From Nocardioides sp. W7 (GTDB lineage Bacteria > Actinomycetota > Actinomycetes > Propionibacteriales > Nocardioidaceae), in contig NZ_CP095078.1 in assembly GCF_022919075.1 (NCBI RefSeq), positions 4,774,001 through 4,838,000 on the forward strand: a stretch of 64,000 bases of DNA, in the 5' to 3' direction. This document shows positions 8,089-31,603 of this stretch, one piece after another (the first letter of the stretch is position 1; every line of letters begins with the position of its first letter). The position numbers were made by a program, and so were the translations under genes. The notes under the pieces were generated by a model that did no database searches, had not been told where the DNA came from, and was given only the letters and a program-made list of their open reading frames with translations.

Positions 8089-9783
8089 TCAGCGCACCGG
8101 CAAGGGATCCGCGAGGGCGGCGTAGAGAGCGGGCTGCCGGTCGGCCAACAGGTCGGTGCGCCGCATGAGGAGCTTGTCCCTGCTCGCGCGGAGATCGATC
8201 TCCGCCACCAGCGGCGTACCGAGCTCGGCGGCGTGTCGCTCAGGCATGTTGACCTCGCCCGTGATGGGGAACTGGTAGGTGGTCGGCGTACTGAGCACGG
8301 CGTGCCCCGTCGGCTCGACCGAGTCCGCGCGCGCAGCGACCACCACGGCCACGTGGTTCTCCGCCGAGCGCTCGGGCGCGACCAGACGGTGCTCCCACCC
8401 GTGGCGCCATCCCCCGGGCAGCACGAGGAGGTCGGCCCCCGCGAGGGTCAGGATCCTGGCGGCTTCGGGGAAGACGAGGTCGTGCCCGGTCAGCAGACCG
8501 ATGCGACCGAAGGGCAGGTCGGCGGTGACGAACTCGGTCCCCGCCGCGGCCCAACCGCGGTCGTCAGGGTGCACGTGCACCTGGTGGTACCAGGTACGTG
8601 CTCCCGTCGGAGTGACGAGCACGGTGGCGTTGCTCGTCCCGGCACCGGACGCGCCCGGGACGCCGGCGACGACGTGCAGACCGCGGCGAGCCGCTACCTC
8701 GCCGAGGGTCACCAGCACCTTCTCGACGAACCCGGGATCGACCGCCGCACCCCCGCGCAAGGACGTGACGTCCCAGGCGAAGAGCTCCGGGAGGACGGCC
8801 AGGTCGACCGCCAGGCCCTCGAGCCAGGTGACGACAGCCTCGAGTGCGGCCTCCCCCACCACGCCCCGGCCGGGGCCGCCCACGGCGAGAGTGACGGGGC
8901 CGGCGTCCGTCCGTCCCGCGAGCGTCTCCTCATGACTCTCGACAGGGGCAACCAGAGCCCCGTAGAGGTCGGGACGCCGCTGCGTCAGGAGGCCGTCGCC
9001 CCCGGCGAGCGAGAGGTCAACGGTCGTCATCGCCATGTCGTCGACGTGCGCCTTGGCGCGGACCAGGCTGACCCCGCGCGGGTCGACGACCTGGCTCTCG
9101 CCGCCGCCGACGAGCTTGGACTTGTCGATGCCGTTCTTCGCAGTGAGCGCGTCGAGGTCGACGGGGTCGACCAGCGGTCCGGCACGGTTGGCCGAGACCA
9201 CGAAGACGCCGTTCTCCGCAGCCCTGACCGGGATGTGCGTGTGCGCCTCGTCCAGGCCGTTCGACGACAGCGAGTTCAGGATGAGCTGGGCGCCCTTGAC
9301 GGCCAGGACGCGAGGGTTCTCCGGGATCAGGCCCTCCATGCACGACATGATCCCGACACGACCGAACCGGGTGTCGACCACGCCGGCCTCGCGGGTCCCG
9401 GGCACGAAGTGGTCGCGCTCGGATCCCATGAGCACCTGCTTGTGGCTGGTGAGGATGACCTCCCCCTCGTCCGACAGCAGGAAGTTCTGATCGATGACCA
9501 GAGGCCAGTCAGACCTCACCGTCGCGTTGAACGACAGGTGGATCGACCGCTCGGCCGCCTTGGCCTTCAGCACACGCAGGAACTCGTCGTCCTCGCTCAG
9601 CGCCGACTGCCACACGTGGTCGGGGCTGGCGTACAGCGCGGGGTGGTTGCAGAACTCCTGGAAGACGACCAGGTCCGCGCCGGCATCGGCCGCGTCGTCC
9701 ACCAGGCCCACCATGCGACGCAGGTTCGCACCGGTGTCGTTGCCGCTGGTGAACTGGCAGGTGGCGATGGTGACCTGGGACAT
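8089..9783 (-). CDS. Tandem-domain nitrilase-superfamily amidohydrolase, second copy
   Basis: Complete paralogue (564 residues) of the protein at the left edge. The N-terminal fold has E43 (VVFQEF), K115 (TSHKQVL) and C148 (IMSCMEG). The C-terminal fold keeps the Glu (VLPELF) but reads YHQVHVHP where Lys is expected and LLTGHDLVF where Cys is expected. A single-domain nitrilase is about 270-330 residues, so this is a true two-fold protein with one active site lost; the second half may serve in oligomerisation or substrate gating. The start is ATG at 9783. Flavoprotein genes sit on both sides on the same strand. Confidence 0.88.
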   Translation of the reverse strand: MSQVTIATCQFTSGNDTGANLRRMVGLVDDAADAGADLVVFQEFCNHPALYASPDHVWQSALSEDDEFLRVLKAKAAERSIHLSFNATVRSDWPLVIDQNFLLSDEGEVILTSHKQVLMGSERDHFVPGTREAGVVDTRFGRVGIMSCMEGLIPENPRVLAVKGAQLILNSLSSNGLDEAHTHIPVRAAENGVFVVSANRAGPLVDPVDLDALTAKNGIDKSKLVGGGESQVVDPRGVSLVRAKAHVDDMAMTTVDLSLAGGDGLLTQRRPDLYGALVAPVESHEETLAGRTDAGPVTLAVGGPGRGVVGEAALEAVVTWLEGLAVDLAVLPELFAWDVTSLRGGAAVDPGFVEKVLVTLGEVAARRGLHVVAGVPGASGAGTSNATVLVTPTGARTWYHQVHVHPDDRGWAAAGTEFVTADLPFGRIGLLTGHDLVFPEAARILTLAGADLLVLPGGWRHGWEHRLVAPERSAENHVAVVVAARADSVEPTGHAVLSTPTTYQFPITGEVNMPERHAAELGTPLVAEIDLRASRDKLLMRRTDLLADRQPALYAALADPLPVR

Positions 9784-13120: not shown

Positions 13121-13134
13121 GGTGTCCACCTCTC

Positions 13135-15010: not shown

Positions 15011-16431
15011 GACGGCTGCTCCTGGGGGGTCGGGGTGGTTGCCGCCAGGGCGCTCGCGCCACTGCGCGGTCGGTGCAGGAAGCTGCCCGGTCGCTCGTCG
15101 GTCAGGCGACCGTTGCGAACCGCGAAAGTCCCTCCGACGACCGTGTGGACGACCTTCGGGTCGACCCGGGTGCCCTGCCACGGGGTGTACTCCGCCGCCG
15201 AGTACTGGGTGGCGGCATCGATGACGGTTCCACCCGTCGGGTCGACGACGACGAGGTCGGCGTCCGACCCGACCTGGATGGTTCCCTTGCGCGGGTAGAG
15301 ACCGAAGAGCTTGGCCGAGCGCGTGCTGGTGGCGTCGACGAGCCGCTCCAGGCCGATCCCCCGCGCCAGGCCCTCGGCCAGGGTCAGCGGCAGCACCACT
15401 CCGGTGCCCGGGAAGCCGGCGGTCGCCGAGAAGATGTCCTTCTCCTTGTGGCTGCGGTGTCGGGCGTTGTGGTCCGACCCCACCGTGTCGACCGACCCGT
15501 CCGCCACACCGGCCCACAGCGCCTCGACGTCGGCGGGATCGCGCAGCGGCGGGTTGACCTTGCCGTAGCTGCCGCATCCCGAGTCGGTGCTGAGCGTCAG
15601 GTAGTGGGTGCAGGTCTCGACGAAGAGATTCTCGTACGACTCACGCTGGCGACGCACCACGTCGAGGGCGGCACCGGAGGACGTGTGCACGGCGTACACG
15701 GACGCGCCAGTGGCGGCCGCCAGGTAGGCCACCCGCTGCTGGGCGTCCGCCTCCACCAACGGTGGCCGCGCTGCGTTCCAGGACCGCAACGGGTGATCGG
15801 GGTCGACGAGGGTGCGCCCGGCCAGCCGACGCACGAGCTCGATGTTCTCGGGGTGAGGATTGATCATCGCCCCGTGGTCGGCCGAGAGACCGAGCAGGTC
15901 GTACATGAATCCGTCGTCGTTGCCCGGCATGCCCAGGTAAGCGCCCTCGTCGTCGCGGAAGTTCATGAAGAACTTGAACGACGAGACCCCCAGGTCCTTC
16001 ACGTACGACGGGAGCTCCGCGAGGTGCTCGTCCGTGCCGAGTACGTAGTGGAACCCGTAGTTGACCCGCGAGTTGCCTGCCATCGCCCCATCTGCGGCTT
16101 CGTGCACGCCCGCGTAGGACTCCGAGCTCATGAGGTAGACCAGCATCGACGTGATGCCTCCGGCCACGGCGGACGCGGACTCGAGGTCGGCGTCGTCGGG
16201 GTCCTTGGGCACCCGGATGTCCTTGCCCAGGTGGACGTGCGGGTCGATCGCGCCCGGAAGGACCCACTGGCCCGAGACGTCGAGGGTCTCGGTCGCAAGC
16301 GCAGGTGAGGACGCGTCGACCAGCCCCACGACGGTGCCGTCCTTGACCAGGATGTCGGCGTCGACGAGTCCCGAGCCGTGGACGAAGACCTTGCCACCGT
16401 GCAGCCGGAGGTCGGGGAGGTCGTTCGCCAT
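15007..16431 (-). CDS. Dihydropyrimidinase/hydantoinase-family cyclic amidohydrolase
   Basis: Binuclear-metal amidohydrolase of 474 residues, the usual length for D-hydantoinase, dihydropyrimidinase, allantoinase or imidase. The metal ligands are all present: HxH in AIDPHVHLG, a Lys that would be carbamylated in SSFKFFMNF, His in INPHPENIE, His in YAVHTSSG, Asp in VGSDHNAR. It opens a cyclic ureide or imide to an N-carbamoyl acid or half-amide. The gene overlaps the lyase gene upstream by one base and the amidase gene downstream by four, forming one translational unit. The family cannot tell hydantoins, dihydropyrimidines and imides apart by these motifs. Confidence 0.88.
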   Translation of the reverse strand: MANDLPDLRLHGGKVFVHGSGLVDADILVKDGTVVGLVDASSPALATETLDVSGQWVLPGAIDPHVHLGKDIRVPKDPDDADLESASAVAGGITSMLVYLMSSESYAGVHEAADGAMAGNSRVNYGFHYVLGTDEHLAELPSYVKDLGVSSFKFFMNFRDDEGAYLGMPGNDDGFMYDLLGLSADHGAMINPHPENIELVRRLAGRTLVDPDHPLRSWNAARPPLVEADAQQRVAYLAAATGASVYAVHTSSGAALDVVRRQRESYENLFVETCTHYLTLSTDSGCGSYGKVNPPLRDPADVEALWAGVADGSVDTVGSDHNARHRSHKEKDIFSATAGFPGTGVVLPLTLAEGLARGIGLERLVDATSTRSAKLFGLYPRKGTIQVGSDADLVVVDPTGGTVIDAATQYSAAEYTPWQGTRVDPKVVHTVVGGTFAVRNGRLTDERPGSFLHRPRSGASALAATTPTPQEQPS

Positions 16432-17318
16432 CACAGGCCCTCCCGATTGACCGCGTAGCGCCGCTCGAGTGCGTCGTACTCGTCCTTGCCCACCAGCGCC
16501 TGACGATCCGCCCACGAGAGCATCAGGCTCTGGACGCCGTTGGTGTCCCCCGCGTCCCTGAGGTGCTGGAGAACGGTCCTCATGGCAACGACCGAGGCGC
16601 GCATCGCAGAGTTCGCGTAGAGCACGATGGAGAACCCGAGCCGGCCCAGCTCGCCGCGCCCCAGGATGGGGGTCTTCCCGCCCTCGACCATGTTCGCGAG
16701 GTGGATCCCGGGGACCTCCGTCGTGATGCGTTGCATCTCCTCCTGCGAGCGCGGGGCCTCCACGAAGAGGACGTCCGCGCCGGCCTCTCGGTACAGGGTT
16801 ACCCGCTTCAAGGCCTCGTCGAGTCCGTGGACGGCCGCGGCGTCGGTGCGAGCGATGATGAGTAGGTCGTCGTGGCTCCGAGCCTCGACCGCGGCAGCGA
16901 TCTTGCCGACCATCTCGTCGGCCTCGATCACGTCCTTGCCGTTGAAGTGACCGCACCGCTTCGGGGACACCTGGTCCTCGAGCTGGATCGCGGACGCGCC
17001 GGCGCGCTCCAGCTGCATCACGGTTCGACGCACGTTGATCGCGTTGCCGAACCCGGTGTCGGCGTCGACCACGACCGGGATGCTGACGGCTTCCGCCATC
17101 GCCGCGACGTGGCTGCTCAGCTCAGTGAGCGTGAGGAGGCCGATGTCAGGGGCCGCCAGGTATGTGTTCGAGATGCCGGCGCCACTGACGTAGACAGCCT
17201 CGAACCCCTGCTCCTCGACAACGCGGGCGGTGAGTGCGTTGGCCGCGCCCGCCATGAGCAGCGGTCCGGTCGCATCGTCCAGGCGGTCGCGCAACCGGGG
17301 CGACTGAGGGATCCTCAT
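16431..17318 (-). CDS. Isocitrate lyase / PEP mutase superfamily carbon-carbon lyase
   Basis: TIM-barrel lyase of 295 residues, close to methylisocitrate lyase and 2,3-dimethylmalate lyase in length. It has the Mg-binding VVDADTGFGN, the catalytic loop SPKRCGHFNGK and LLIIARTDA. Members cleave a 2-hydroxy-dicarboxylate, usually giving succinate or pyruvate/propionate-type fragments. It is first in the operon with the cyclic amidohydrolase and the amidase, which suggests it cleaves the dicarboxylate that those two enzymes produce. A second domain of the same family is fused to a monooxygenase at 25,375-27,537. Confidence 0.9.
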   Translation of the reverse strand: MRIPQSPRLRDRLDDATGPLLMAGAANALTARVVEEQGFEAVYVSGAGISNTYLAAPDIGLLTLTELSSHVAAMAEAVSIPVVVDADTGFGNAINVRRTVMQLERAGASAIQLEDQVSPKRCGHFNGKDVIEADEMVGKIAAAVEARSHDDLLIIARTDAAAVHGLDEALKRVTLYREAGADVLFVEAPRSQEEMQRITTEVPGIHLANMVEGGKTPILGRGELGRLGFSIVLYANSAMRASVVAMRTVLQHLRDAGDTNGVQSLMLSWADRQALVGKDEYDALERRYAVNREGL

Positions 17319-18393: not shown

Positions 18394-19356
18394 GTGCTGT
18401 CCTACATCCTTTCCAAGGTGTTCCAGACACTCGCGACCTTCGGTCTCGTGGTGCTGGGGGCCTTCGCCATGCTGCGCCTGGCGCCCGGAGATCCCGCCCT
18501 CGCCCAGGCCGGCGTCGCCGCGAACAGGGAGCAGGTCGAGCTAATCCGCGAGCAGATGGGCCTCAACCGGCCCTTCACCGAGCAGCTGTGGGAATGGTTC
18601 AGCGGTGCCTTCACCGGGGATCTGGGTGTGTCCTACGCGGACGGCGCCAAGGTCACGGAGGTGATCGGCACCCACGTCGGCCCCACCCTGCAGCTCGTAG
18701 CCCTGACCACAGCGCTGACGATCCTGCTGTGCGTACCACTGGGCATCTGGACGGCAGTGGGCACCTCACGCGCCGCACGCTGGCTGGGCAACACCGTGAC
18801 GGTCCTCGGTCCGGCCGTCCCCAACTTCGTTGTCGGCATCATGCTCGTCCTGATCTTCGGCTGGCTGGTGCCGGGCATCCTCCCGTACTACGGGTACGTG
18901 TCAGTACGGGAAGACTTCTTCGGCGCACTGTCCCACACGATCCTGCCGGCACTGGCCCTCATGACGAGCGGTGTCGCGATCATCGCCCGCGTGCTTCGGG
19001 CAAGCATCATCGAGACGCTCAATGACGACTTCGTCTTCGTCGGCACGGCGTTGGGCGTGCCGCCCCGACGCCTGCTGTGGACCGACGTCCTTCGCAACTC
19101 GCTCGTCGCCGCGACCACGGTGTTCGGACTGTTCCTCGGCGTGGCCCTGTCGGGCAGCGTCGTCCTGGAGAACGCGTTCGGCATCCCCGGTCTCGGCGCT
19201 CTCCTCGTCGACAGCTTCGACGATCGCGACTACCCCGTCACCATCGGCACGACGCTCGTCATCGTCGCCGCGGTGCTGCTCGTCAATCTCGTCGTCGACC
19301 TGCTTTACCTCGTTCTGGCACCGCGCGTGCGCTTCGACCTGGGAGTGAGTTCATGA
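18394..19356 (+). CDS. ABC transporter permease, DppB type
   Basis: Inner-membrane permease of 320 residues for a peptide/nickel-type importer. It shows the usual N-terminal span and LRLAPGDPA segment, six predicted helices, and the EAA loop with the conserved Gly (RASIIETLNDDFVFVGTALG). It starts at GTG 18394 with GAGAGG 8 bases upstream. It is the first gene of a plus-strand operon under operator D, and its stop overlaps the next start (ATGA). It would pair with the permease encoded next and the binding protein at 1778-3349. Confidence 0.92.
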   Translation: MLSYILSKVFQTLATFGLVVLGAFAMLRLAPGDPALAQAGVAANREQVELIREQMGLNRPFTEQLWEWFSGAFTGDLGVSYADGAKVTEVIGTHVGPTLQLVALTTALTILLCVPLGIWTAVGTSRAARWLGNTVTVLGPAVPNFVVGIMLVLIFGWLVPGILPYYGYVSVREDFFGALSHTILPALALMTSGVAIIARVLRASIIETLNDDFVFVGTALGVPPRRLLWTDVLRNSLVAATTVFGLFLGVALSGSVVLENAFGIPGLGALLVDSFDDRDYPVTIGTTLVIVAAVLLVNLVVDLLYLVLAPRVRFDLGVSS

Positions 19357-20360
19357 CCGTCCCGCCGCAGACCACCACCAGGGGAGCAGGCCCGTCCGCC
19401 TCCACCGACACGGCTGTCGCACCTCCGGCGCGACCCTCGCGAGTACGCCGCGCCCTCACTGCGTGGCGCACCTCGTCCCCGTCGCTGAAGCGCTGGAGCC
19501 TCGCCTTCTTCCTACTCGCGGCCGTCTGCCTGCTCGGCCCGCTGGTGGCGCCGCACCCCCCGAACACCGGCGTCGGCCTGCCGCTCGAGGCCCCGTCGGG
19601 CTCCTACCTGCTCGGATCAGACGCCGACGGACGCGACGTGCTGAGCCGACTCCTGTTCGCCAGCCGCATCTCCCTCGGCATCGCGCTCTTCTCGGTGGCG
19701 CTCGGAGCGGTGGTCGGCACCACCATGGGCCTCGTCGTGGCTGCCATGGAGGGACACCTCGTGAGCACCCTGCTGCTGCGCTTCATGGACGCCATCCTCG
19801 CCTTCCCGTTCGTGGTGCTCGCCGCCGTGACGGCCAGCGTCACCTTCGGGCAGAGCGTCGGCGTCGGCCCGATCAGGTTCGGTGAGCTGTCGATCCTTGC
19901 CGCGGTACTCGCCCTGATCCAGATCCCCATCTTCGGACGCCTCGCCCGAGGCACGGCCCTGGAGGAGAACAGTCGCGACTACGTCTCGGCGGCGAGGGCC
20001 TGTGGTCAGACCCAGGGTCGGATCCTGCGCACCGAGCTGTTCCCCAACATCATGCCGGCGCTGGTGGTGCAGACCTCGTTCTCGGTGGTCATCGCCATCG
20101 CCGCCGAGGCTGCGATCTCCTACCTCGGCCTGGGCATCCAGAAGCCCAATCCCAGCTGGGGGAACATGATCCGCGACGGGCTGGACGCGATCGTCCTCGG
20201 CGCGTGGTGGATCGCTGCGTTCCCCACGGCTGTCGTCATCGCCGTCTCGATCGTGCTCACCGGTCTCGGAGAGGCACTCCGCGTCGCCATGGATCCACGC
20301 AACCGCACGCGCCACTCCGTCGAGACCGTCAGTGCCGAGGCCGAGAAGAAGGAGACATGA
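19353..20360 (+). CDS. ABC transporter permease, DppC type
   Basis: 335-residue second permease with a long Ala/Pro/Arg-rich cytoplasmic N-terminus, then a membrane domain with the DppC hallmarks LLGSDADGRDVLSRLLFASR, FMDAILAFPFVVLAA and the EAA loop ENSRDYVSAARACGQ, and SYLGLGIQKPNPSWGNM near the end. It is translationally coupled on both sides through ATGA overlaps. It forms the heteromeric pore with the preceding permease. Confidence 0.92.
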   Translation: MTVPPQTTTRGAGPSASTDTAVAPPARPSRVRRALTAWRTSSPSLKRWSLAFFLLAAVCLLGPLVAPHPPNTGVGLPLEAPSGSYLLGSDADGRDVLSRLLFASRISLGIALFSVALGAVVGTTMGLVVAAMEGHLVSTLLLRFMDAILAFPFVVLAAVTASVTFGQSVGVGPIRFGELSILAAVLALIQIPIFGRLARGTALEENSRDYVSAARACGQTQGRILRTELFPNIMPALVVQTSFSVVIAIAAEAAISYLGLGIQKPNPSWGNMIRDGLDAIVLGAWWIAAFPTAVVIAVSIVLTGLGEALRVAMDPRNRTRHSVETVSAEAEKKET

Positions 20361-21244
20361 TCACCGTGAGTGACTCGCCCACCACCCGGGCCCTGTCGAC
20401 CACGACGGCCCCGAGCGAACCGCCGGCGTCCTCGGTCGTCCCGGCCCTCAGGATCGAGAACCTGTCGATCCGCTACGGCTCGGCACCCCGTCCGGCGATC
20501 GTCGACTTCTCGATGACCGTTCCGCACGGCGCCTCGGTGGCCCTGGTCGGTGAGAGCGGGTCCGGGAAGTCGACGGTGCTGCGCTCGATCATCGGCATGC
20601 TGCCCCGCACGGCCACCATCGAGAGTGGCTCGATGAGCTTCTACGACCTCGACCTGCTGACGCTGGACGAGAAGGGCTTCTCCCAGGTGAGGGGCTCGAG
20701 GATCGGCTACGTCTACCAGGACCCGGGCCGCTCCTTCAATCCCAACCGTCGCCTCGGGCCGCAGGTCGCGCGAGTGCTCAGGTACGCGCGGCCGGACATG
20801 GACAAGAAGGCCCGCAACGACGAGGTGGTCAGGATCCTCGACCGCGTCGGCCTCGATGGCAGCGTGGTGCGCGAGCGCTACCCTTTCCAGCTGTCAGGGG
20901 GCGAGCTGCAGCGCGTCCTCATCGCGACTGCCTGCATGTCGGGGCGTCCACAGCTGTTGGTGGCGGACGAGCCCACGACCAGCCTGGACGTGACGATCGA
21001 GGCAGAGATCCTCGAGCTCCTGCGCCAGATCCGTTCCGAGCTCGAGCTGACCCTCCTGCTCGTGACCCACGACCTGGGGGTGGTCAACGAGCTCTGCGAC
21101 TCGGCGGTGATCCTCGACAAGGGCGTCGTGGTGGAGGCCGGCACGGTCGCCGACGTCCTCGGTTCCCCCCAGCACCCCTACACGCAGGCACTCATCAGCA
21201 GCATCCCGAAGCTGCCCGACGCAGCCGGAGGACACCATGAGTGA
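20357..21244 (+). CDS. ABC transporter ATP-binding protein, DppD type
   Basis: 295-residue ATPase with Walker A GESGSGKST, Q-loop VYQDPG, signature LSGGELQR, Walker B LLVADEPTTS and the switch His in LVTHDLG. The C-terminal PQHPYTQALISSIPKL is the oligopeptide-transporter hallmark. The start at 20357 overlaps the previous stop (ATGA) and the 3' end overlaps the next gene by 8 bases. It energises the importer together with the next gene's product. Confidence 0.93.
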   Translation: MITVSDSPTTRALSTTTAPSEPPASSVVPALRIENLSIRYGSAPRPAIVDFSMTVPHGASVALVGESGSGKSTVLRSIIGMLPRTATIESGSMSFYDLDLLTLDEKGFSQVRGSRIGYVYQDPGRSFNPNRRLGPQVARVLRYARPDMDKKARNDEVVRILDRVGLDGSVVRERYPFQLSGGELQRVLIATACMSGRPQLLVADEPTTSLDVTIEAEILELLRQIRSELELTLLLVTHDLGVVNELCDSAVILDKGVVVEAGTVADVLGSPQHPYTQALISSIPKLPDAAGGHHE

Positions 21245-22070
21245 CGCGAGCACGCCCCTCGTCGAGGCTGTCGACATCGTGAAGCAGTACGGCGCGCGCC
21301 GCCGAGGCCCGTTCGCCAAGGCACCGTCCGCGCCGCCGGCCCTGAACGGCGTGAGCGTGGAGGTGCAGCGCGGTGAGACGCTCGCCATCATCGGGGAGAG
21401 CGGCTCGGGCAAGTCCACCCTGGGACGCATCATGCTCAGGCTGACCGACACGACGTCGGGTCGAGTCGTGTTCGACGGCCGGGACCTGCTCGCCATGAAG
21501 GAGTCCGACGTGCGCCGCATGCGCAGCCGGATGAACTACATCTTCCAGAACCCGTACGGCGCGGTGAACCGCCGCCACACGATCGAACGGATCCTCGCGG
21601 CGCCCTTGGAGGTGCACAACCTGTACCGGGGGAACCGACGGTCGAGGTGCGTCGAGCTGCTCGACATGGTGAGCCTGCTGCCCACCCACCTCGACCGCTT
21701 CCCGCACGAGCTCTCGGGAGGTCAGCTGCAGCGCGTGGTGATCGCCCGCGCCCTGGCCACGAACCCCGACTTCGTCGTCGCGGACGAGCCCACGACCGGA
21801 CTCGACGTGATCACCAGTGCCCGGCTCGTGACACTGCTCGACGACCTCAAGCGACAGCTGGGACTCTCGATGATGTTCATCAGTCACGACCTGCGTACGG
21901 TCGCCCAGCTGGCGGACCGCATCGTCGTGATGCGCAAGGGGGGGACCGTCGAGCACGGGGCCTGCAACGACCTGCTGCTCAACCCGCAGCACCCCTACAC
22001 CCAGAAGCTCATCGACTCGGTGCCGAAGCTGCCCGAGAAGACGTACGAGGTCGTGTCCGGTGGCGCTTGA
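21237..22070 (+). CDS. ABC transporter ATP-binding protein, DppF type
   Basis: 277-residue second ATPase: Walker A GESGSGKST, FQNPYGAVNRRHT in the Q-loop region, signature LSGGQLQRV, Walker B FVVADEPTTG, HDLRTVAQLAD, and PQHPYTQKLIDSVPKL at the C-terminus. An NMRR-like linker typical of DppF is not obvious, but the order permease-permease-ATPase-ATPase makes the assignment clear. The downstream aldehyde dehydrogenase starts inside its last codons. Confidence 0.93.
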   Translation: MSDASTPLVEAVDIVKQYGARRRGPFAKAPSAPPALNGVSVEVQRGETLAIIGESGSGKSTLGRIMLRLTDTTSGRVVFDGRDLLAMKESDVRRMRSRMNYIFQNPYGAVNRRHTIERILAAPLEVHNLYRGNRRSRCVELLDMVSLLPTHLDRFPHELSGGQLQRVVIARALATNPDFVVADEPTTGLDVITSARLVTLLDDLKRQLGLSMMFISHDLRTVAQLADRIVVMRKGGTVEHGACNDLLLNPQHPYTQKLIDSVPKLPEKTYEVVSGGA

Positions 22071-23556
22071 TGTCGCGCCACGCACGGTCCTTTCGTACGC
22101 CGCCGGCACCGCCGTCGACGACGGCGAGTGGATCGTCCGCGAGGACCCGTCCCGACCTCACCTCACGGCCGGGAGGGTCAGCGCGACGGACGCGGCGGGG
22201 GTGGATCGCGCAGTCGAGGCCGCCGATGCCGCCTTCGGTCCGTGGGCAGCACGCTCCCTCCAGGAGCGGACGTCCCTCGTGCTCGGCGCCTGCCAGGCGG
22301 TGCGCGAGGCGGAGCACTCGCTGGCCGACCTCCTGACCCGTGAGAGCGGCAAGGTCCTGGCCGGGTCGCTCGGCGAGCTGCGCTTCTCCCTTGCCCACGC
22401 GCAGTACTGCGCCGACATCGCCGAGGAGGTGCTCGCGCCCCGCATCGGCGGCAGCCGCGCGGGACACCTCGAGGTCCACCACCAGCCGTACGGCGTGGTG
22501 GCCGCCGTCACCCCGTGGAACGCTCCGCTGATCCTCGCCTTCCTGAAGGTGGTCCCGGCGCTCCTCACCGGCAACACCCTCGTCCTCAAGCCGTCCCCGC
22601 TGGCGCCGCTGGCCATCACCGAAGCGCTGTCAAGGGTCGCGCAGGGCCTGCCCCCGGGCGTGCTGAACGTGGTGAACGGCGACCACCAGGTCGGGGCCCG
22701 GCTCACCTCGCACCCGCTCGTCCGGAAGGTCGTCTTCACCGGCGGCTCGACCGTGGGGCGTTCGATCCTCAGGACGACCGCGGAGAACCTGGTGCCGACC
22801 GTGATGGAGCTGGGCGGCAACGACGCCGCGGTCTTCCTCGACGACGTCGACCTCTCGCGCGCGAATGTGGAGCGTGCCGTGCTCGGCTCGTTCCTCTCCG
22901 CAGGCCAGGTCTGCATGGCGGCGAAACGGGTGTACGTCCACTCCTCCCGCTACGAAGAGTTCGTCGACGCCTACCTGCGCGCCGCCGACGACGTGCTCCA
23001 GGTGGGTGACCCTCTGCTCGATCGCGTCTCCGTGGGTCCCTTGATCAACCGCCCGGCGGTCGAACGGGTCCAGGGGATCGTCGAGGAGGCAGTGGCTGGC
23101 GGCGCCTCGGCCCGGACCGTCGGCGGGGTCGTCTCCCCCGAGCTCCTCGGCGCCGGCTACTTCCTGCGACCGGTCGTCGTGACGGGAGCCGAGGACTCCG
23201 ACCGGATCGTGCGCGAGGAGCAGTTCGGCCCCGTGGTGCCGGTCCTCCCCTTCGACGACGTCGACGAGGTCGTACGCCGCGTGAACGCCGATCCCCTCGG
23301 CCTCGGCGCCTCCGTCTGGAGCGCGGACGTACGCCGCGCCTTCGACGTCGGACGCCACCTCGAGGTCGGCTACACGTTCATCAACTCGCACAACCGGTTC
23401 GGCATGACGCTCGAGGCGCCTTTCGGCGGTGTGAAGGGCAGCGGCTTCGGCCGCGAGTACGGCCCTGACGGGCTGCTGGAGTACGTCCAGACCCACTCGC
23501 TGTTCGCCCCGGAGCGCCTTTCGACGGACCCGCAGGCCTACCCGACCGTGGGCTGA
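22060..23556 (+). CDS. NAD(P)-dependent aldehyde dehydrogenase, second copy
   Basis: 498-residue aldehyde dehydrogenase with AVTPWNAPL, LKPSPLAPL, FTGGSTVG, the general base E250 (TVMELGGND) and the catalytic C285 (SAGQVCMAAK). The GTG start overlaps the ATPase gene by 11 bases, making it the last gene of the importer operon, so uptake and this oxidation step are co-expressed under the GntR regulator. It is not a close copy of the enzyme at 3777-5219 and probably acts on a different aldehyde such as a semialdehyde. Convergent with the next gene. Confidence 0.92.
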   Translation: MALDVAPRTVLSYAAGTAVDDGEWIVREDPSRPHLTAGRVSATDAAGVDRAVEAADAAFGPWAARSLQERTSLVLGACQAVREAEHSLADLLTRESGKVLAGSLGELRFSLAHAQYCADIAEEVLAPRIGGSRAGHLEVHHQPYGVVAAVTPWNAPLILAFLKVVPALLTGNTLVLKPSPLAPLAITEALSRVAQGLPPGVLNVVNGDHQVGARLTSHPLVRKVVFTGGSTVGRSILRTTAENLVPTVMELGGNDAAVFLDDVDLSRANVERAVLGSFLSAGQVCMAAKRVYVHSSRYEEFVDAYLRAADDVLQVGDPLLDRVSVGPLINRPAVERVQGIVEEAVAGGASARTVGGVVSPELLGAGYFLRPVVVTGAEDSDRIVREEQFGPVVPVLPFDDVDEVVRRVNADPLGLGASVWSADVRRAFDVGRHLEVGYTFINSHNRFGMTLEAPFGGVKGSGFGREYGPDGLLEYVQTHSLFAPERLSTDPQAYPTVG

Positions 23557-23610: not shown

Positions 23611-24270
23611 TCACTCATCCGTCAGAGCCCCGAGATAGGCGCGCACCTCGGCCAGGTCCCGCACCTCTCCGGCCTTCGCGGCGATGTCGCGAAGATTCCC
23701 CTCGTGCACCTCCGGGTGACGGTCACCCACCGCCTCACGCACCACGATCGGAACGAATCCGTGTTGCAGTGCGTCCAGGGAGGTGGCCCGGATGCAGCCG
23801 CTCGTGGACCAGCCGGCGATCAGCACCGTGTCGATTCGCTGTGCCACCAGCGAGGCCGCGAGGGAGGTGCCCGCGAAGGCACTCGGATAGTGCTTGGTCA
23901 CCACCACCTCCCGCGCGCGCGGTTCGAAGCCGTCGATGAACTCGGCGAGCGGGTTGCCCTCCACGAAACACTTCAACGCGGGGACCTTCTGGAAGAAGAG
24001 ACCGCCCAGCATGGCCGCGTCGTCCGCGTAGAGCACCCGGGTGAGGTAGATGGGGATGCCGGCTTCCGCGGCCGCCTCGCGTAGCTCGCGCATCGCGACC
24101 GCCGACTGCTCGACCGCGGCGTACAGAGGCGACTCGCTGTCCAGATAGGCCCGCGCCGGATCGACGACCACCAACGCCGGCCGTGCGCCGGGCTCGAGCC
24201 GCCCGCCGAACCCGACGCTGACGTAGTCCTCCTCGAGGGTCGCGCCCCGCAACGGCTGCTGCCAGGTCAT
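23611..24270 (-). CDS. Isochorismatase-family amidohydrolase, second copy
   Basis: 219 residues with the triad D37 (LVVVDPAR), K126 (VVVTKHYPSAF) and C159 (WSTSGCIRATSLDA). It belongs to the same carbamoylsarcosine/maleamate amidase branch as the protein at 14318-15010 but is diverged. The first triad region reads VDPAR rather than the commoner DxQ. The ATG at 24270 overlaps the stop of the Dabb gene (ATGA). Last gene of the minus-strand block led by the monooxygenase-lyase fusion; it probably deaminates an acyclic amide formed there. Confidence 0.88.
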   Translation of the reverse strand: MTWQQPLRGATLEEDYVSVGFGGRLEPGARPALVVVDPARAYLDSESPLYAAVEQSAVAMRELREAAAEAGIPIYLTRVLYADDAAMLGGLFFQKVPALKCFVEGNPLAEFIDGFEPRAREVVVTKHYPSAFAGTSLAASLVAQRIDTVLIAGWSTSGCIRATSLDALQHGFVPIVVREAVGDRHPEVHEGNLRDIAAKAGEVRDLAEVRAYLGALTDE

Positions 24271-24593
24271 GACGGCTCGGCCGTGCTGCGCCGGACATCG
24301 CTGTCGTCGAATTGCACGAAGGCCTTGGCGGCGAGCACGGGTTTGATGTGCTCCCCGATCAGGGCCAGGTGGGCCGGGTGGCTGCCGTACTCCCACCACG
24401 ATGCCTGGGAGTCGAAGACCATCTGGAAGCGCAGTGCGGCATTTCCCTCGGCCAGGCCGGCGTCGCGGACCACCTGCGCCTCGACGAGCCCGTCGACAAG
24501 TCCGGGTAGGGCCAGCAGTCCCTCGAGGATCGCCTCGACCTGCTCTTCGGTGCTGTCGGGAACCAGGGTCAAGTGGCCTACATGATTGAACAT
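24267..24593 (-). CDS. Dabb-type (stress-responsive A/B barrel) small protein
   Basis: 108-residue single ferredoxin-like barrel: FNHVGHLTLVPDSTEEQVEAI, then LEGLLALPGLVDG, LRFQMVFDSQASWWEYGSHP and AHLALIGEHIKPVL, the pattern of the Dabb/dimeric alpha-beta barrel family. Members act as small oxygenases, cyclases or accessory proteins; some have no known activity. AAGGAG lies 9 bases before the ATG at 24593. Position between the amidase and the maleate-isomerase-like gene suggests a role in the same short pathway. Confidence 0.75.
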   Translation of the reverse strand: MFNHVGHLTLVPDSTEEQVEAILEGLLALPGLVDGLVEAQVVRDAGLAEGNAALRFQMVFDSQASWWEYGSHPAHLALIGEHIKPVLAAKAFVQFDDSDVRRSTAEPS

Positions 24594-24625: not shown

Positions 24626-25378
24626 TCAGCGTTGTTCGAGGAGCGAGCCGTAGCCGGTGATCCGGTCGTTGATCCCGTTGGCTCGGAACGCGTGCCACAT
24701 CGTGGCCAGGTTGATGGCGATCACCGGCTTCTCTAGCTCCCTCTCCAGCTCGGCGGCTACTGCCACGCACTCCAGGTTCGTGCCGCACTGGATCAAGGCA
24801 TCGACGTCGGGACCGTCCACTGCCAGGAACGCCTCCCGCAGCGTCTCGGGGGTCTCCTCCGCGATCGAGGTGGCGGAGGCCGAGCGCAGCCCCTTGATCG
24901 ACGCCACCTCGAACCCCAGCTCGGTGAAGTAGGCGACCACCTGCTCGTCCCCCACCGCCTGGTAGGGCGTCACGATGCCGATCCGCTCGGCACCGAAAGC
25001 ACGGAGGGCCTCACCTGCGGCGGTCGCACCGGTGGTCACCTCCAACCCAGTGTGGTCTCGTACTTTTCGCTCGAACTCCGCGTTGCCCTGGACCCCACCC
25101 CAGAAGGTCTCCGCCGACATCCCCATCACGATGTAGTCGGGCAAGCAGGTCATCACCGTCTCCAACGCGTCGGGGAGCGACTCGTTGAGTGACTCACGGA
25201 ATGCGCCGAAAGCGTCGTCGGATTCCAACGCGGGTGCCTTGATCATGATCCGCCCCGTGTGCCACGAGCAGTCCTGCGGGCGGAGGCGATGGAACTCCCG
25301 CTCCACGGAGGTGTTGGTCGAAGGGAGCACCAGGGCGAACTTCGGCCCCTTCGCGGGATCCGTGCGAGTGGTCGTCAT
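24626..25378 (-). CDS. Maleate isomerase / Asp-Glu racemase superfamily protein with one catalytic Cys
   Basis: 250 residues with the family opening LPSTNTSVEREFHRL, a central MGMSAETFWGGVQGN and the second-half motif ALIQCGTNLECV (C198). Maleate isomerases and racemases use two cysteines; here the first position falls in VMGMSAE and is not Cys, while C198 is kept. That one-Cys arrangement resembles arylmalonate decarboxylase, so decarboxylation or a modified isomerisation is as likely as maleate-to-fumarate conversion. The start overlaps the stop of the fusion gene upstream (ATGA), tying it to that enzyme's product. Confidence 0.82.
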   Translation of the reverse strand: MTTTRTDPAKGPKFALVLPSTNTSVEREFHRLRPQDCSWHTGRIMIKAPALESDDAFGAFRESLNESLPDALETVMTCLPDYIVMGMSAETFWGGVQGNAEFERKVRDHTGLEVTTGATAAGEALRAFGAERIGIVTPYQAVGDEQVVAYFTELGFEVASIKGLRSASATSIAEETPETLREAFLAVDGPDVDALIQCGTNLECVAVAAELERELEKPVIAINLATMWHAFRANGINDRITGYGSLLEQR

Positions 25379-27537
25379 GATCGACTCCTGAGGTTGTCGG
25401 TCGGGATCATCTCGTCGTTCGCCAGGGCAGCCGCCCTGGCCAGCTGCTCGGGTTGGCCCATCAGCTCGGTGAAGTCGCTCCAGTCCTGCGGGGACCAGCC
25501 GGAGCTACCGCCACGACGGACCTGGTCGTAGGTCGTGGCGACCGCCTTCGCCGAGGCCAGCAGTGCGGAGACCGGCTGGATCACCAACGCCACGCCGCAT
25601 TCGGAGAGGATCCGGTCGGCCGGGAGGTCGGAGTGGTCCCCGGCCTCGGAGAGGCTCACCACCAGCGGGGTCCCGCCGACCGCCTCGCGCAACGCCAGGA
25701 GCTCTGCCTTCGCGTACACCCCTTCGGCGAATATCAGGTCAGCCCCGGCAGCGGCGTACGCCGAGGCACGCTTCAGCGTGGCCGAGAACCCCTCGACCGT
25801 CATCGCGTCGGTGCGGGCGATCACGAGTAGCGAGCTCCGCTCCGCAGCCGCGATCTCCACCTTGGCGACCATCTCGGAGAGGTCGAGGAGCTCCTTCCCG
25901 GCCAGGTGACCACACCGCTTCGGCGCGGCCTGGTCCTCGAGCTGCACAGCTGCTGCCCCGGCGGCCTCGAACCGCCGCACGGCCTCGGCGACCTGGAGGA
26001 CGCCGCCGTAGCCGGTGTCGCCGTCGACGACCAGCGGCAGGCCGGACGCGGTGCTGACCCGGCGTACCTGCTCGGCCATGTCGGCGAGGCCGAGATAGCC
26101 GAGGTCCGGTTGCCCCAGGACTGCCGCCGAGACAGCGGCTCCGGAGAGGTAGACGGCGTCGAAGCCGGCGCGGGCCACCAGGGTGGCGCTGACCCCGTCA
26201 TACGCCCCGACCGCGGCGACCGGACCTCGGCAGAGCAGTCTGGAGAGCCGTTGCCCCGGCGCCATCCGTCCGTCCGGCACGGCACGCAGCTCTCGCGCCA
26301 GGCGGCCGGTCGTGATCCGGAGGGAGGTGAACATGGCCGCGCCCCGTTGATGCTCGCGCATCGCCAGCTCGTCGTTCTCCGCCACCGACAGTTCGGCGGC
26401 ACGGAAGGACCTCGTGCGATCGTCCGGCTCCCGCATCGTGTCGTAGGTGACCTGGGCGGTGGCCTGCACGTGGTGGAGCGCGGCATCGCGGCGCAGCTCA
26501 CTGTAGAGAGTGGCGGCGTGCCGCGCGTCGGTGCCGGTGAGCGCGGCATCGATGCACTTCGCCGCTGCCCACGCGTCGTGGATGCCGCTGTTCATCCCCA
26601 TGCCCCCGAGGGGGTTGTTGACGTGCGCCGCGTCGCCGGCGAGCAGCACCTGCCCGGAGGCGAAGGTGGCCGCGGCTCGCATGTTGACCGCATAGACGTT
26701 GGCGTGCACCACTTCGTACGGCGTGGACTGCGGCGCGATCCGCTGCAACCGGCGTTCCAGCGCCTCGGGCGCCATCGCCTGCTCGTCGCTCTCGTCCGAG
26801 CTCACGGGGAAGAGCGCTCGCCAGTGCTTGGGGGTGCGCAGCAGCACGCCCCACTCCTCCGGGTCGGAGATGTAGCTGACATAGGCCAGGTCTGGAAAGT
26901 CATCGCGGAAGTCGTGGGTGGTGGAGATGACCAGGAAACGCTCGTCATAGGTGGTGCCTTCGAAGGCGATCCCCAGCGACTTGCGGATCACGGAGCTGGC
27001 GCCGTCGGCCGCGATCAGCCAGCGGGCGAGCACCGGCTCGTCACGGTTCCTACCTTCGAGGTGGATCCGCACGTGCCTGTCCGACCGTTCCACGCGGGCC
27101 ACCGGGCTGGCGAAGGAGAGCGTCACGTTCGGCAGCTTGCGAAGCTCGTCAAGGATGAGAGCGGTCAGGTTGTTCTGCTCGCTCTGCAGCCGGTACGGAA
27201 AGCGGGTCTCTGCCGACAGCAGGGACATGTCCATCTCACTGAGCACGCCACCCCCGCGCCTGCGGTATTGATAGATCGGCGCCCGCAGCCCGACGCGATG
27301 GAGTGCCTCGCTTACCCCCAGCTCATCGAGCAGCTCCAACGTCGAGGGGTGGAAAGTGGATGCCCGAGCCTCCGCAGAGAGGGCCGCCCCTGCCTCGAAC
27401 ACGATCACGTCGTGCCCAATCCTGGCAAGGCTCAGGGCTGCGACCATCCCGACGGGGCCCATCCCTGCGACCGCGACAGTGTGCATCTGCTCGAACAGCG
27501 GGTCGTCACGCCGTTCGAGGCGGGTCTTCTCGTCCAT
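25375..27537 (-). CDS. Fusion of FAD-dependent aromatic hydroxylase and isocitrate-lyase/PEP-mutase-type lyase
   Basis: 720 residues from the ATG at 27537 (GGGAG 6 bases upstream; an ATG at 27582 lies inside a putative operator and has a poorer site). Residues about 20-430 are a complete class A flavin monooxygenase: GMGPVGMVAALSLA for ADP binding, LIAADGASSVIRKSLG (the DG motif) and LLAGDAAHVNNPLGGMGMNS (the GD motif). Residues about 430-720 are a complete PEP mutase/isocitrate lyase domain with VVDGDTGYGG and APKRCGHLAGKE (about 540). There is no stop or frame change between the halves. The hydroxylase would attack an aromatic or heteroaromatic ring and the lyase a 2-hydroxy-dicarboxylate; joining them suggests channelling or strict co-production. 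I know of no described enzyme with this layout. Confidence 0.9.
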   Translation of the reverse strand: MDEKTRLERRDDPLFEQMHTVAVAGMGPVGMVAALSLARIGHDVIVFEAGAALSAEARASTFHPSTLELLDELGVSEALHRVGLRAPIYQYRRRGGGVLSEMDMSLLSAETRFPYRLQSEQNNLTALILDELRKLPNVTLSFASPVARVERSDRHVRIHLEGRNRDEPVLARWLIAADGASSVIRKSLGIAFEGTTYDERFLVISTTHDFRDDFPDLAYVSYISDPEEWGVLLRTPKHWRALFPVSSDESDEQAMAPEALERRLQRIAPQSTPYEVVHANVYAVNMRAAATFASGQVLLAGDAAHVNNPLGGMGMNSGIHDAWAAAKCIDAALTGTDARHAATLYSELRRDAALHHVQATAQVTYDTMREPDDRTRSFRAAELSVAENDELAMREHQRGAAMFTSLRITTGRLARELRAVPDGRMAPGQRLSRLLCRGPVAAVGAYDGVSATLVARAGFDAVYLSGAAVSAAVLGQPDLGYLGLADMAEQVRRVSTASGLPLVVDGDTGYGGVLQVAEAVRRFEAAGAAAVQLEDQAAPKRCGHLAGKELLDLSEMVAKVEIAAAERSSLLVIARTDAMTVEGFSATLKRASAYAAAGADLIFAEGVYAKAELLALREAVGGTPLVVSLSEAGDHSDLPADRILSECGVALVIQPVSALLASAKAVATTYDQVRRGGSSGWSPQDWSDFTELMGQPEQLARAAALANDEMIPTDNLRSRS

Positions 27538-27679
27538 CCATAGCTCCCACCTGCTCGAGCTGGTATCGGGACCAATTTCCATTATGTGGTAACATCCTTC
27601 CCGCGATATGGAAGAAGCCTACGGAGCGCTCGAGGTCACGGCAAGAGGCAATGCCGAACAGGCGGACAGAGGAGGGCGT
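27538..27679. promoter_or_regulatory. Divergent control region, fusion gene / IclR regulator
   Basis: 142 bases between divergent starts. TTCCATTATGTGGTAA (27577-27592) is a near-palindrome, and TTCCAT (27577-27582) also pairs with ATGGAA at 27608-27613. IclR-type repressors commonly bind such sites between themselves and their target; this assignment is inferred from position. No copy of the GntR operator is present, so this block has its own control. Confidence 0.45.
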
Positions 27680-28447
27680 ATGCACCCGCGAACTGAGGGG
27701 CAACGCGTGAGCGGTGCCAGCAGCGCTCGAAAACTGCTGAACATGCTGCTCTGCTTCACCGAGCAGCGGCCGATATGGTCCGTGGCCGAAATGGCTGTCG
27801 ACCTCAGCCTCCCCACGACCACGGCTTACCGCTACGTGGGCCTCCTGCGAGAGGTCGGCTTGTTGGAGCCAGCCGGCGACGGCGGATATCGGCTCACCGA
27901 CTTGACCCTTGGTCTTGCCAAGGCGTGCGAAGCGGCTCAACGCCCCTTGGAGGTGGTAGCGCTTCCGGTCATGCACAAACTTCGCGCGGACTTCGACGAG
28001 ACGGTTCTAGTCGCGCGACGGAGCGGCACTGCTGCGTACTGCGTGGAGCGGGTGGAGTCCGAGCGGCCGGTACGTCTGCAGTTCGACCGCGGGCAGGCGA
28101 TGTCACTACATTCGGGAGCCCTTGCCCGGTTGTTGCTCGCCAGCATGCCTCGACTTGAGCGACGTCGCTATGTCGACCAGGCGCTGCCGCAGCTCAGCCC
28201 CGAGCGGGCGGTGACCTTGAGCGAAGAGTCGCTGGACCGCAACCTGGCAGAGGGGTGGACCGAGAGCTTCGAGGAGATCGACGAAGGCATCTGGGGCTGC
28301 GCGGCAGTCATCCGGATGGGGGCCGACGTGGTCGCAGCGATCGGCACTGCCGCCCCTGTTTATCGCACAGATGCAGATCGCCGGGACCGCATCGCGTCCT
28401 CTATCCGAGCCGCCGCGGACGAGATCTCGGGGTTGCTTGGTCGGTGA
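27680..28447 (+). CDS. IclR-family transcriptional regulator
   Basis: 255 residues: an N-terminal winged helix (ARKLLNMLLCFTEQRPIWSV, AEMAVDLSLPTTTAYRYV) and an IclR effector domain (VVALPVMHKLRADFDETVLV, ALARLLLASMP, EEIDEGIWGCAAVIR). The ATG at 27680 has GGAGG 4 bases upstream and matches the family's usual length; the frame is open to 27608. It is divergent from the monooxygenase-lyase block and should sense that pathway's substrate or intermediate. Last gene of the catabolic island. Confidence 0.88.
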   Translation: MHPRTEGQRVSGASSARKLLNMLLCFTEQRPIWSVAEMAVDLSLPTTTAYRYVGLLREVGLLEPAGDGGYRLTDLTLGLAKACEAAQRPLEVVALPVMHKLRADFDETVLVARRSGTAAYCVERVESERPVRLQFDRGQAMSLHSGALARLLLASMPRLERRRYVDQALPQLSPERAVTLSEESLDRNLAEGWTESFEEIDEGIWGCAAVIRMGADVVAAIGTAAPVYRTDADRRDRIASSIRAAADEISGLLGR

Positions 28448-29537: not shown

Positions 29538-30788
29538 GTGTTGTCAGTGGAGGACTGGGCTGAGATCCGGCGGTTGCACCGTGCGGATGGAGTGCCGATC
29601 AAGGTGATCGCCAGGACGATGGGGATCTCGAAGAACACCGTGCGCAAGGCGCTGCGTGTTGACGGTCCGCCGCGTTACGACCGGGTAGCGCGAGGATCGG
29701 TGGTCGATGCGGTCGAGCCGCAGATCCGGGAGTTGTTGCGGGTCACGCCCACGATGCCGGCCACGGTGGTGGCGGAGCGGATCGGCTGGGAGCACTCGAT
29801 CCGGATTCTGCGGTCCAGGGTCAGCGACCTGAGGCCGGTGTACCTTCCGCCGGATCCCGCGTCGCGCACGATCTATGAGCCCGGCGAGCTGGCGCAGTTC
29901 GACTTCTGGTTCCCTGCGATCGAGCTCCCGGTCGGGTACGGCCAGACCAGGACGGCGAAGCGGCTGCCGGTGATGACGATGGTGTCGGGCTACTCGCGGT
30001 GGGCCGGCGCGGTGCTGATCCCGCGCCGAGAGACCGAGGACCTCTTTCCCGGTTGGTGGCACCTGATCCAACAGCTCGGTGCGGTCCCTCGGACGCTGGT
30101 GTGGGACGGCGAAGGAGCGGTCGGGCGCTGGCGTGCTCGCCAGCCCGAGCTGACCAGCGACTGTCAGGCGTTCCGTGGCGTACTGGGCGCCAGCGTCTAC
30201 ATCTGCAAGCCCGCCGATCCCGAGGCCAAGGGAATGCTGGAGCGATTCCACGACTACCTCGAACGGTCATTCCTGCCCGGGCGCACCTTCGAGTCACCGA
30301 AAGACTTCAACACCCAGCTGAGCGAGTGGGTGGCCAAGGCCAACACCCGTCGGATGCGGGTGCTGGGCTGCAGGCCGGCGGACCGGATCGCAGCCGACAA
30401 GGCGGCGATGATGCCGCTGCCGCCGGTCCCACCTGAGGTCGGCTGGCGCAAGGGCCTGCGGCTGCCGCGTGACCACTACATCCGCCTCGATTCCAACGAC
30501 TACTCCGTGCACCCCGCCGTGGTCGGGCGACGGATCGAGGTCCACGCCGACCTCGACCGGGTCTGGGTGACCTGCGAGGGCGCGATCGTCGCCGACCACG
30601 CCCGGGTATGGGCCCAGCACCAGACCATCACCGACTTCGAGCACACCGTCGCCGCCAAGCTGCTGCGCCAAGGTCGTGGTGATCTGCTGCGGCCGGTCGC
30701 GGACGCGGTCACTGGTGAGGAGGTCGAGGTCCGATCACTCGGCATCTACGACCAGATCCTCGGACTCGTCGACGAGGAGGTCTCCTGA
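29538..30788 (+). CDS. istA: IS21-family transposase IstA
   Basis: 416 residues: an N-terminal helix-turn-helix (WAEIRRLHRADGVPIKVIAR, TMGISKNTVRKALR), then an rve-type DDE integrase core with Asp in AQFDFWFPA, Asp in LVWDGEGAVG and Glu in GMLERFHDYLE, and a C-terminal beta domain. It cuts and joins the element ends together with IstB. GTG start. Its stop TGA overlaps the ATG of istB by one base. Confidence 0.95.
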   Translation: MLSVEDWAEIRRLHRADGVPIKVIARTMGISKNTVRKALRVDGPPRYDRVARGSVVDAVEPQIRELLRVTPTMPATVVAERIGWEHSIRILRSRVSDLRPVYLPPDPASRTIYEPGELAQFDFWFPAIELPVGYGQTRTAKRLPVMTMVSGYSRWAGAVLIPRRETEDLFPGWWHLIQQLGAVPRTLVWDGEGAVGRWRARQPELTSDCQAFRGVLGASVYICKPADPEAKGMLERFHDYLERSFLPGRTFESPKDFNTQLSEWVAKANTRRMRVLGCRPADRIAADKAAMMPLPPVPPEVGWRKGLRLPRDHYIRLDSNDYSVHPAVVGRRIEVHADLDRVWVTCEGAIVADHARVWAQHQTITDFEHTVAAKLLRQGRGDLLRPVADAVTGEEVEVRSLGIYDQILGLVDEEVS

Positions 30789-31603
30789 TGGCCGCGCGGA
30801 CGACCGCGAAGACGACACCGAAGACCGGCCGTGATGTCACCAGCGAGTTGGAGTACCTGACGCGGGCGTTGAAGGCGCCGACGCTGCGCGAGTCGGTCGA
30901 GCGGCTGGCCGAGCGTGCCCGGGAGGAGTCCTGGACTCATGAGGAGTTCTTGGCCGCCTGCCTGCAACGCGAGGTGTCGGCGAGGGAGTCCCACGGTGGC
31001 GAGGGCCGGATCCGGGCCGCCCGATTCCCAGCGAGGAAGTCGTTGGAGGACTTCGACTACGACCACGCCAGAGGCCTGAAGCGGGAGACCATCGCGCACC
31101 TAGGCACCTTGGACTTCGTCGCTGGCAAGGAGAACGTCGTCCTGCTCGGACCGCCCGGGACCGGGAAGACCCATCTGGCCACCGGGCTGGCGATCCGGGC
31201 CTGCCAGGCCGGCAACCGGGTCCTGTTCGCCACCGCGTCCCAGTGGGTCGACCGGCTCGCCGAGGCCCACCAGGCCGGACGCCTGCAAGACGAGCTCCGA
31301 CGGCTGGTGCGCTACCCGGTGCTGGTCATCGACGAGGTCGGCTACATCCCGTTCGAGCCCGAGGCCGCGAACCTGTTCTTCCAACTCGTCTCATCCCGAT
31401 ACGAGCGCGCCAGCCTGATCGTCACGTCGAACAAGAACTTCGCCCGCTGGGGAGAGGTCTTCGGCGACGACACCGTGGCCGCCGCGATGATCGACCGGCT
31501 CGTCCACCACGCCGAGGTCATCGCCCTGAAGGGCGACTCCTACCGACTGAAGAACCGAGAACTCGGCCGTGTCCCCGCGGCCATCAACGAAGAGAACCAG
31601 TAG
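30788..31603 (+). CDS. istB: IS21-family helper ATPase IstB
   Basis: 271-residue DnaC-like AAA+ ATPase with Walker A LLGPPGTGKTHLA, Walker B VLVIDEVGYIPF and sensor region LIVTSNKNFARWGEVFGDD. It forms a filament that selects targets and activates IstA. A Lys/Thr-rich N-terminal tail (AARTTAKTTPKTGRD) is present. Translationally coupled to istA. Confidence 0.95.
   Translation: MAARTTAKTTPKTGRDVTSELEYLTRALKAPTLRESVERLAERAREESWTHEEFLAACLQREVSARESHGGEGRIRAARFPARKSLEDFDYDHARGLKRETIAHLGTLDFVAGKENVVLLGPPGTGKTHLATGLAIRACQAGNRVLFATASQWVDRLAEAHQAGRLQDELRRLVRYPVLVIDEVGYIPFEPEAANLFFQLVSSRYERASLIVTSNKNFARWGEVFGDDTVAAAMIDRLVHHAEVIALKGDSYRLKNRELGRVPAAINEENQ

Follow-up and report, generated by a model that had tools for sequence, protein, structure and literature searches.

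A flavin monooxygenase fused to a methylisocitrate-lyase-type domain in a catabolic gene cluster of Nocardioides sp. W7 and other Actinomycetes

The enzymes closest to the protein studied here are known as separate polypeptides. The p-nitrophenol 4-monooxygenase PnpA was solved (6ain) as a stand-alone protein of 418 amino acids with no lyase part, and the 6-hydroxy-3-succinoylpyridine 3-monooxygenase HspB (7da9), a named pyridine enzyme, is stand-alone as well. The pathway of HspB employs a ring dioxygenase and a maleate isomerase. On the lyase side, 2-methylisocitrate lyase (PrpB) and 2,3-dimethylmalate lyase, which resemble the second half of our protein in fold and share its KRCGH loop, also stand alone.

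Unlike these enzymes, the protein described here unites both types in one chain. It is encoded in a stretch of 64,000 nucleotides of Nocardioides sp. W7 (contig NZ_CP095078.1, positions 4,774,001 to 4,838,000), hereafter the window. Its domain architecture is new and built from known parts. Among the matches listed in the open-access literature, as far as the available parts of these sources go, none describes the fusion or its gene cluster, in agreement with a preliminary description of the window that knew of no such fusion, and none gave a name for the pathway.

The fused gene and its two halves

The gene joining an FAD monooxygenase to a PEP-mutase/methylisocitrate-lyase domain occupies 25375..27537 on the (-) strand and encodes 720 amino acids, or 735 when read from an ATG at 27582; an ORF check of the window found the frame 25375-27582 (-) open and uninterrupted across its 735 codons. 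The start at 27537 is the likelier of the two, since a ribosome-binding-like GGTGGGAG lies six bases upstream and since it aligns with the N-terminus of the homologue from Nocardioides gilvus (locus L002). Pfam places FAD_binding_3 at residues 35-373 (E 7.9e-51, 173.8 bits against a cut-off of 22) and PEP_mutase at residues 453-688 (E 1.3e-42, 146.5 bits against 31.5). The protein contains GMGPVG, DGASS and GDAAH, which we take to be the GxGxxG, DG and GD motifs of flavoproteins, followed by DGDTGYG and KRCGH, presumably the lyase motifs. The uninterrupted 720-residue frame with a complete hydroxylase and a complete lyase, as the preliminary description had read it, is thus borne out by the open reading frame, the Pfam domains and the motifs.

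The monooxygenase half (26308..27513, (-) strand) covers residues 24-425 of the longer frame. Given a whole-domain match to PF01494 above the cut-off and the presence of the GxGxxG, DG and GD motifs, it is by sequence a complete class A FAD monooxygenase of predicted activity. Its closest solved relative is PnpA (sequence E 7e-62; 31% identity and a TM to target of 0.89 in Foldseek), followed by HspB (29% identity, TM to target 0.89).

The lyase half (25378..26268, (-) strand, residues 439-735) carries D520/D522 and K555-R-C557-G-H559, which, by comparison with PrpB, we take to be the metal-binding DxD and the KxCGH loop. These residues and a match to PF13714 place it in the C-C lyase branch of the PEP mutase/isocitrate lyase superfamily, and its nearest solved proteins are methylisocitrate lyases. 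It is a complete methylisocitrate-lyase-type domain and a predicted lyase. Two narrower identities were rejected, both scores falling below the equivalog cut-offs: PrpB proper (TIGR02317, 244.1 bits against 354.4) and phosphoenolpyruvate mutase (TIGR02320, 89.7 bits against 319.55).

The two halves meet in a conserved junction of 28 residues. It holds no stop in the window and is common to seven other fused genes; a ninth fused gene, whose lyase lacks the Cys and the His, shares this junction, making nine genes in eight genomes. No frameshift or stop is hidden at residues 420-440, and the joining of two normally separate enzymes, claimed at the outset, is real and conserved. For practical purposes, this conservation rules out a frameshift or an error of sequencing or assembly that would have joined two genes. 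An internal start producing a separate lyase was also rejected, the ATG at M443 being found in the window copy only (one of eight fused genes), as was a plasmid origin, since none of the 848 matching plasmid records covers 80% or more of the query. An AlphaFold model of the fused protein built with 23 sequences reached a mean pLDDT of 84.4 and a pTM of 0.61, the latter making the relative placement of the two domains unreliable; Foldseek searches with this model matched PnpA, HspB and methylisocitrate lyase to the separate halves.

The gene cluster around the fusion

Surrounding the fused gene is a catabolic cluster that includes amidases and a racemase-fold protein. On the (-) strand, an Asp/Glu-racemase-fold gene (Pfam Amdase, EutA-like; 24626..25378) overlaps at its start, over 4 bases, with the stop of the fused gene; two further genes of this strand encode a small Dabb-type protein (24270..24593; 60% identical in tblastn to an L003 protein called Dabb by Pfam) and an isochorismatase-fold cysteine amidohydrolase (23611..24237), whose nearest solved relative is N-carbamoylsarcosine amidohydrolase. 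The (+) strand carries an aldehyde dehydrogenase (22060..23556), a dipeptide/oligopeptide-type ABC transporter with two permease matches and two ATPases (18394..22070) and a divergent IclR-type regulator (27608..28447, start approximate). A carbon-nitrogen hydrolase with two CN_hydrolase stretches (8089..9783, (-) strand) lies 15.6 kb from the fusion; being only distantly related (31%) to the hydrolase found beside other fusions, it is a candidate pathway member.

Nine fused loci (the window, L001, L002, L003, L094, L095, L135, L136 and L153) were compared by tblastn with chosen neighbour proteins, the resulting maps covering the genes for which there was a query. All nine have the racemase-fold gene after the fused one, and eight have an isochorismatase-fold amidase nearby. 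Seven loci contain the close type of carbon-nitrogen hydrolase, seven the Dabb protein, and seven an IclR regulator no farther off than about 5 kb. The poorest cluster of the nine is L094, one of two copies in genome G195. Across 12 aligned amidase sequences, two of them from other isochorismatase-fold genes, the Asp, Lys and Cys that we assume to form the active site are kept without exception. Racemase-fold and isochorismatase-fold genes also occur in 9/9 of the proteobacterial loci mapped, which were chosen for having a lyase nearby.

The racemase-fold neighbour could suggest a route through maleate. Maleate isomerase has two conserved catalytic cysteines, and arylmalonate decarboxylase a single one. 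An alignment of ten racemase-fold sequences has no invariant or near-invariant Cys column: at the first site (GMSA) none of the ten has Cys, and at the QxGTNL site three do, the window copy included. In one phmmer alignment C78 of the window protein stands opposite the first Cys site, and that column holds Cys in four of the ten. Since these cysteines are not conserved across the relatives, the assignment of the family to maleate isomerase is doubtful, as is a standard nicotinate-type route through maleamate and maleate. The window copy itself, which has Cys at the second site and perhaps at the first, may still be such an enzyme. With regard to arylmalonate decarboxylase, the protein scores 81.1 bits with Pfam Amdase (cut-off 25.9) and falls below the NCBIfam equivalog (75.8 against 225); the Cys expected of that enzyme is present in the window copy, yet in only 3/10 relatives. 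Unlike the HspB pathway, the fused clusters have no dioxygenase among their annotated genes, part of the frames being annotated.

Fused, decayed and separate relatives

The fusion architecture is shared beyond the genome of Nocardioides sp. W7. A scan of genome contigs returned 72 loci, three of them fused over their full length, in Rhodococcus sp. CH91, N. gilvus and Nocardia jinanensis (68-71% full-length identity to the window protein). A few loci yielded no oxygenase frame; where one was resolved, 67 of 70 were unfused, with 255-437 amino acids, and belonged mostly, not solely, to Proteobacteria. Whole-genome searches added four fused genes, two of them in G195 and the others in G878 and G790. 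Fused genes were present in 3/197 genomes of the own family, in 3/401 of the family of G246, counting the Rhodococcus (G667) already met in the contig scan, and in 1/396 of a phylum-wide sample, this one being the own genome. A class-wide draw of 394 genomes recovered the own genome and G054, a member of the own genus, again and revealed fused genes in G1222 and G1268, while G1402 was newly found among 198 genomes of the genus of G1222.

In total, eight fused genes from seven genomes have intact catalytic residues. The window protein is 72-76% identical to its fused relatives in the oxygenase half and 59-69% in the lyase half, and nine checked catalytic or metal positions are invariant across the eight genes. 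For both halves, dN/dS stays below 0.45 in all 28 pairs, with many dS values near or above 1. At E 1e-20, a search of six genomes with an intact fusion (the genome of L003 lying outside it) found no other lyase in four of them, and two lyases besides the fused one in each of the own genome and G878.

Within the same class, the genus of G1222 (g36) shows what can become of the fused lyase. G1222 retains it at full length, with the Cys and His of KRCGH replaced by Gly and Ala. The frames of G1268 and G1402 measure 605 and 604 amino acids, and their C-terminal stretch of about 190 residues is a shrunken lyase devoid of the catalytic loop and of an intact metal-site pair, G1402 retaining one of the two Asp; PEP_mutase scores there are 24.4 and 35.6 bits, respectively, against a cut-off of 31.5. 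The cluster of G1268 still has its carbon-nitrogen hydrolase, racemase-fold, Dabb and amidase genes, together with a stand-alone lyase (DADTGFG, KRCGH) downstream in the same direction. For G1402, a stretch of 4.3 kb gave matches to the Dabb and racemase-fold genes alone; on this contig and in the same strand as the oxygenase match, 4.7 kb downstream from it, stands a lyase whose motifs are intact. An additional lyase of G1222 is found on a different contig.

The in-frame remnants kept in G1268 and G1402 could mean that the main role of the lyase half is structural, as a scaffold for the oxygenase, and that its catalysis comes second; methylisocitrate lyases are tetramers, which would suit such a role. 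We regard this as improbable, considering the invariant catalytic and metal positions of the intact genes. Between G1268 and G1402, moreover, the remnant diverges far faster (dN 0.452, dS 0.678) than the oxygenase half (dN 0.093, dS 0.476), which argues that it is decaying rather than maintained as a scaffold.

Separate genes of both types are found close to home. Fourteen loci of the own family with an unfused oxygenase were mapped (L093, in the own genome, and L097-L109), and a separate lyase gene adjoins the oxygenase in 13, the sole exception being L109 in G130; a table of own-family genomes lists the neighbouring lyase for 15 of the 16 that have an unfused oxygenase. The pair of the own genome (C1:2528865-2530954) and those of its family relatives bring members of the two enzyme families together as neighbours, with 43-49% identity to the fused halves. 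In all 13 pairs the genes share one strand and the lyase comes first, the reverse of the order in the fusion, so the mere loss of a stop codon in a split operon is unlikely to explain how the fusion arose. The cluster of the split pairs differs from that of the fusion: it encodes a Rieske protein as well as two aldehyde dehydrogenases and a protein of the acyl-CoA-dehydrogenase fold.

Midpoint-rooted trees were built from 108 oxygenases and 55 lyases, leaving out matches below the length limits and known duplicate loci (among the lyases, duplicates of four fused loci and one other). The eight intact fused oxygenases form one clade with a support of 1.0, and all 11, including the three decayed fusions, another with 0.987. 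Nearest to the fused clade are L155 and L156 (support 0.997), from two small genomes. Fused and split oxygenases do not form a clade (32 genes, 0.713). In the lyase tree, nine of nine fused lyases group together (0.925), as do the 13 split ones (1.0), and the 22 fused and split lyases make up a single clade (0.977), separate from stand-alone lyases and from those near proteobacterial oxygenases. The adjoining pairs of the own family and the grouping of split with fused lyases suggest that the two halves were probably partners before fusing; with the fused and split oxygenases not forming a clade, the case for this earlier partnership is made by the lyase tree and the operons.

Farther away the association loosens. 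Among unfused oxygenase loci outside the own family (L137-L147), 0/11 stretches contain a lyase match, and L155 and L156 have none within 11.7 and 14.2 kb. These loci indicate that a linked lyase is dispensable for the oxygenase, and together with the rarity of fused genes in the genome samples they would fit a quite different reading, in which the halves serve different reactions and were linked by happenstance, the oxygenase pathway needing no lyase. Such a coincidence seems improbable to us in view of the purifying selection on both halves, the lyase adjoining the oxygenase almost throughout the own family, the lyase subfamily shared by fused and split genes, and the stand-alone lyase present in a cluster where the fused one has decayed. 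In addition, 18 of the 68 mostly proteobacterial oxygenase loci L004-L071 have a lyase inside the fetched stretch. We therefore read the lyase as a frequent, non-obligatory partner of the oxygenase.

Predicted pathway and the purpose of the fusion

Judged by its sequence, the fused protein is rather likely to be a bifunctional catabolic enzyme whose two predicted activities belong to one pathway and were fused once. As its family suggests, the N-terminal half would be a flavin monooxygenase of the PnpA/HspB type that hydroxylates a phenol or a hydroxy-N-heteroarene and, in doing so, probably removes a substituent or opens the ring. The C-terminal half would act as a methylisocitrate-lyase-type C-C lyase on a 2-hydroxy-dicarboxylate formed later in the pathway; its intact active site points to pyruvate or glyoxylate and an acid as products. 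The amidases of the cluster may release nitrogen. In Actinomycetes the fusion would have arisen a single time, its probable source being two enzymes that already worked in partnership. The preliminary description had proposed a coupling of ring hydroxylation to C-C cleavage. A single catabolic pathway for both activities is indeed probable, given the adjoining genes of the own family, while the ring itself is suggested by the family of the oxygenase.

Why the two enzymes were joined is a separate matter. According to one explanation, the fusion exists to channel an unstable oxygenase product straight to the lyase site. The physical link with its conserved junction and the integrity of both halves in eight genes would agree with this explanation. 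However, the genes are separate in 13 loci of the own family, and amidase steps may intervene between oxygenation and C-C cleavage. In three genomes the fused lyase is catalytically broken or reduced to a remnant; one of these has a stand-alone lyase within the cluster, and a second has one at a distance of 4.7 kb. Obligate channelling is disfavoured since one genus keeps the oxygenase while its fused lyase decays; we consider channelling unlikely as the purpose of the fusion, and the original claim that it is needed to channel an unstable intermediate does not find support. Joint expression or assembly would be a likelier benefit than tight channelling, given the decay of the lyase half in some lineages.

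Going further, we tentatively suggest that one class of bacteria may hold all stages of such a history: split genes in reversed order, an intact fusion, a fusion deprived of its Cys and His, and a remnant replaced by a stand-alone lyase. Under the same tentative proposal, these genes would belong to an undescribed catabolic pathway for a nitrogen compound, combining a pyridine/phenol-type oxygenase with a C-C lyase and apparently dispensing with a canonical maleate isomerase.

The fusion argues that the oxygenase and the lyase can work in a common pathway, and thereby offers a handle on a recurrent catabolic cluster. Taken as a series, the separate, fused and decayed genes would also constitute a natural test of whether enzyme fusion has channelling or mere co-expression as its purpose.

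Lyases of the fused and stand-alone forms

In two of the decayed fusions, where the monooxygenase has remained intact, a shrunken remnant of the lyase still follows it in frame at the C-terminal side, both in L154:8586-10403 and in L152:1006-2820 (-), two loci from other genomes; each has a stand-alone lyase downstream. The window itself also carries a second, stand-alone lyase (16431-17318 (-)), which belongs to the same superfamily as the lyase half of the fused gene, lies on a different branch of the lyase tree and is adjoined by a GntR regulator.

Racemase-fold and carbon-nitrogen hydrolase families

A conserved cysteine was sought in alignment A5, which gathers the racemase-fold neighbour (window 24626-25378 (-)) and its relatives, and none was found; the motifs GMSA..FW.G and Q.GTNL are invariant throughout this family. 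Two CN_hydrolase stretches were matched by Pfam in the carbon-nitrogen hydrolases of the window (8089-9783 (-)) and of the Nocardioides gilvus locus (L002:8186-9994), and in the latter they are clearly tandem domains. With the second window copy (5-1672 (-), 60% alike), these enzymes measure 560-600 aa.

Mobile element and small proteins

Directly outside the cluster lie an IS21-type transposase and its helper ATPase (window 29538-31603 (+)). Two small proteins, of about 94 aa (L001:4996-5280) and 133 aa (window 12728-13129 (-)), are without Pfam match and look similar when judged by eye only. The shorter type adjoins the transporter in five of the nine fused loci.
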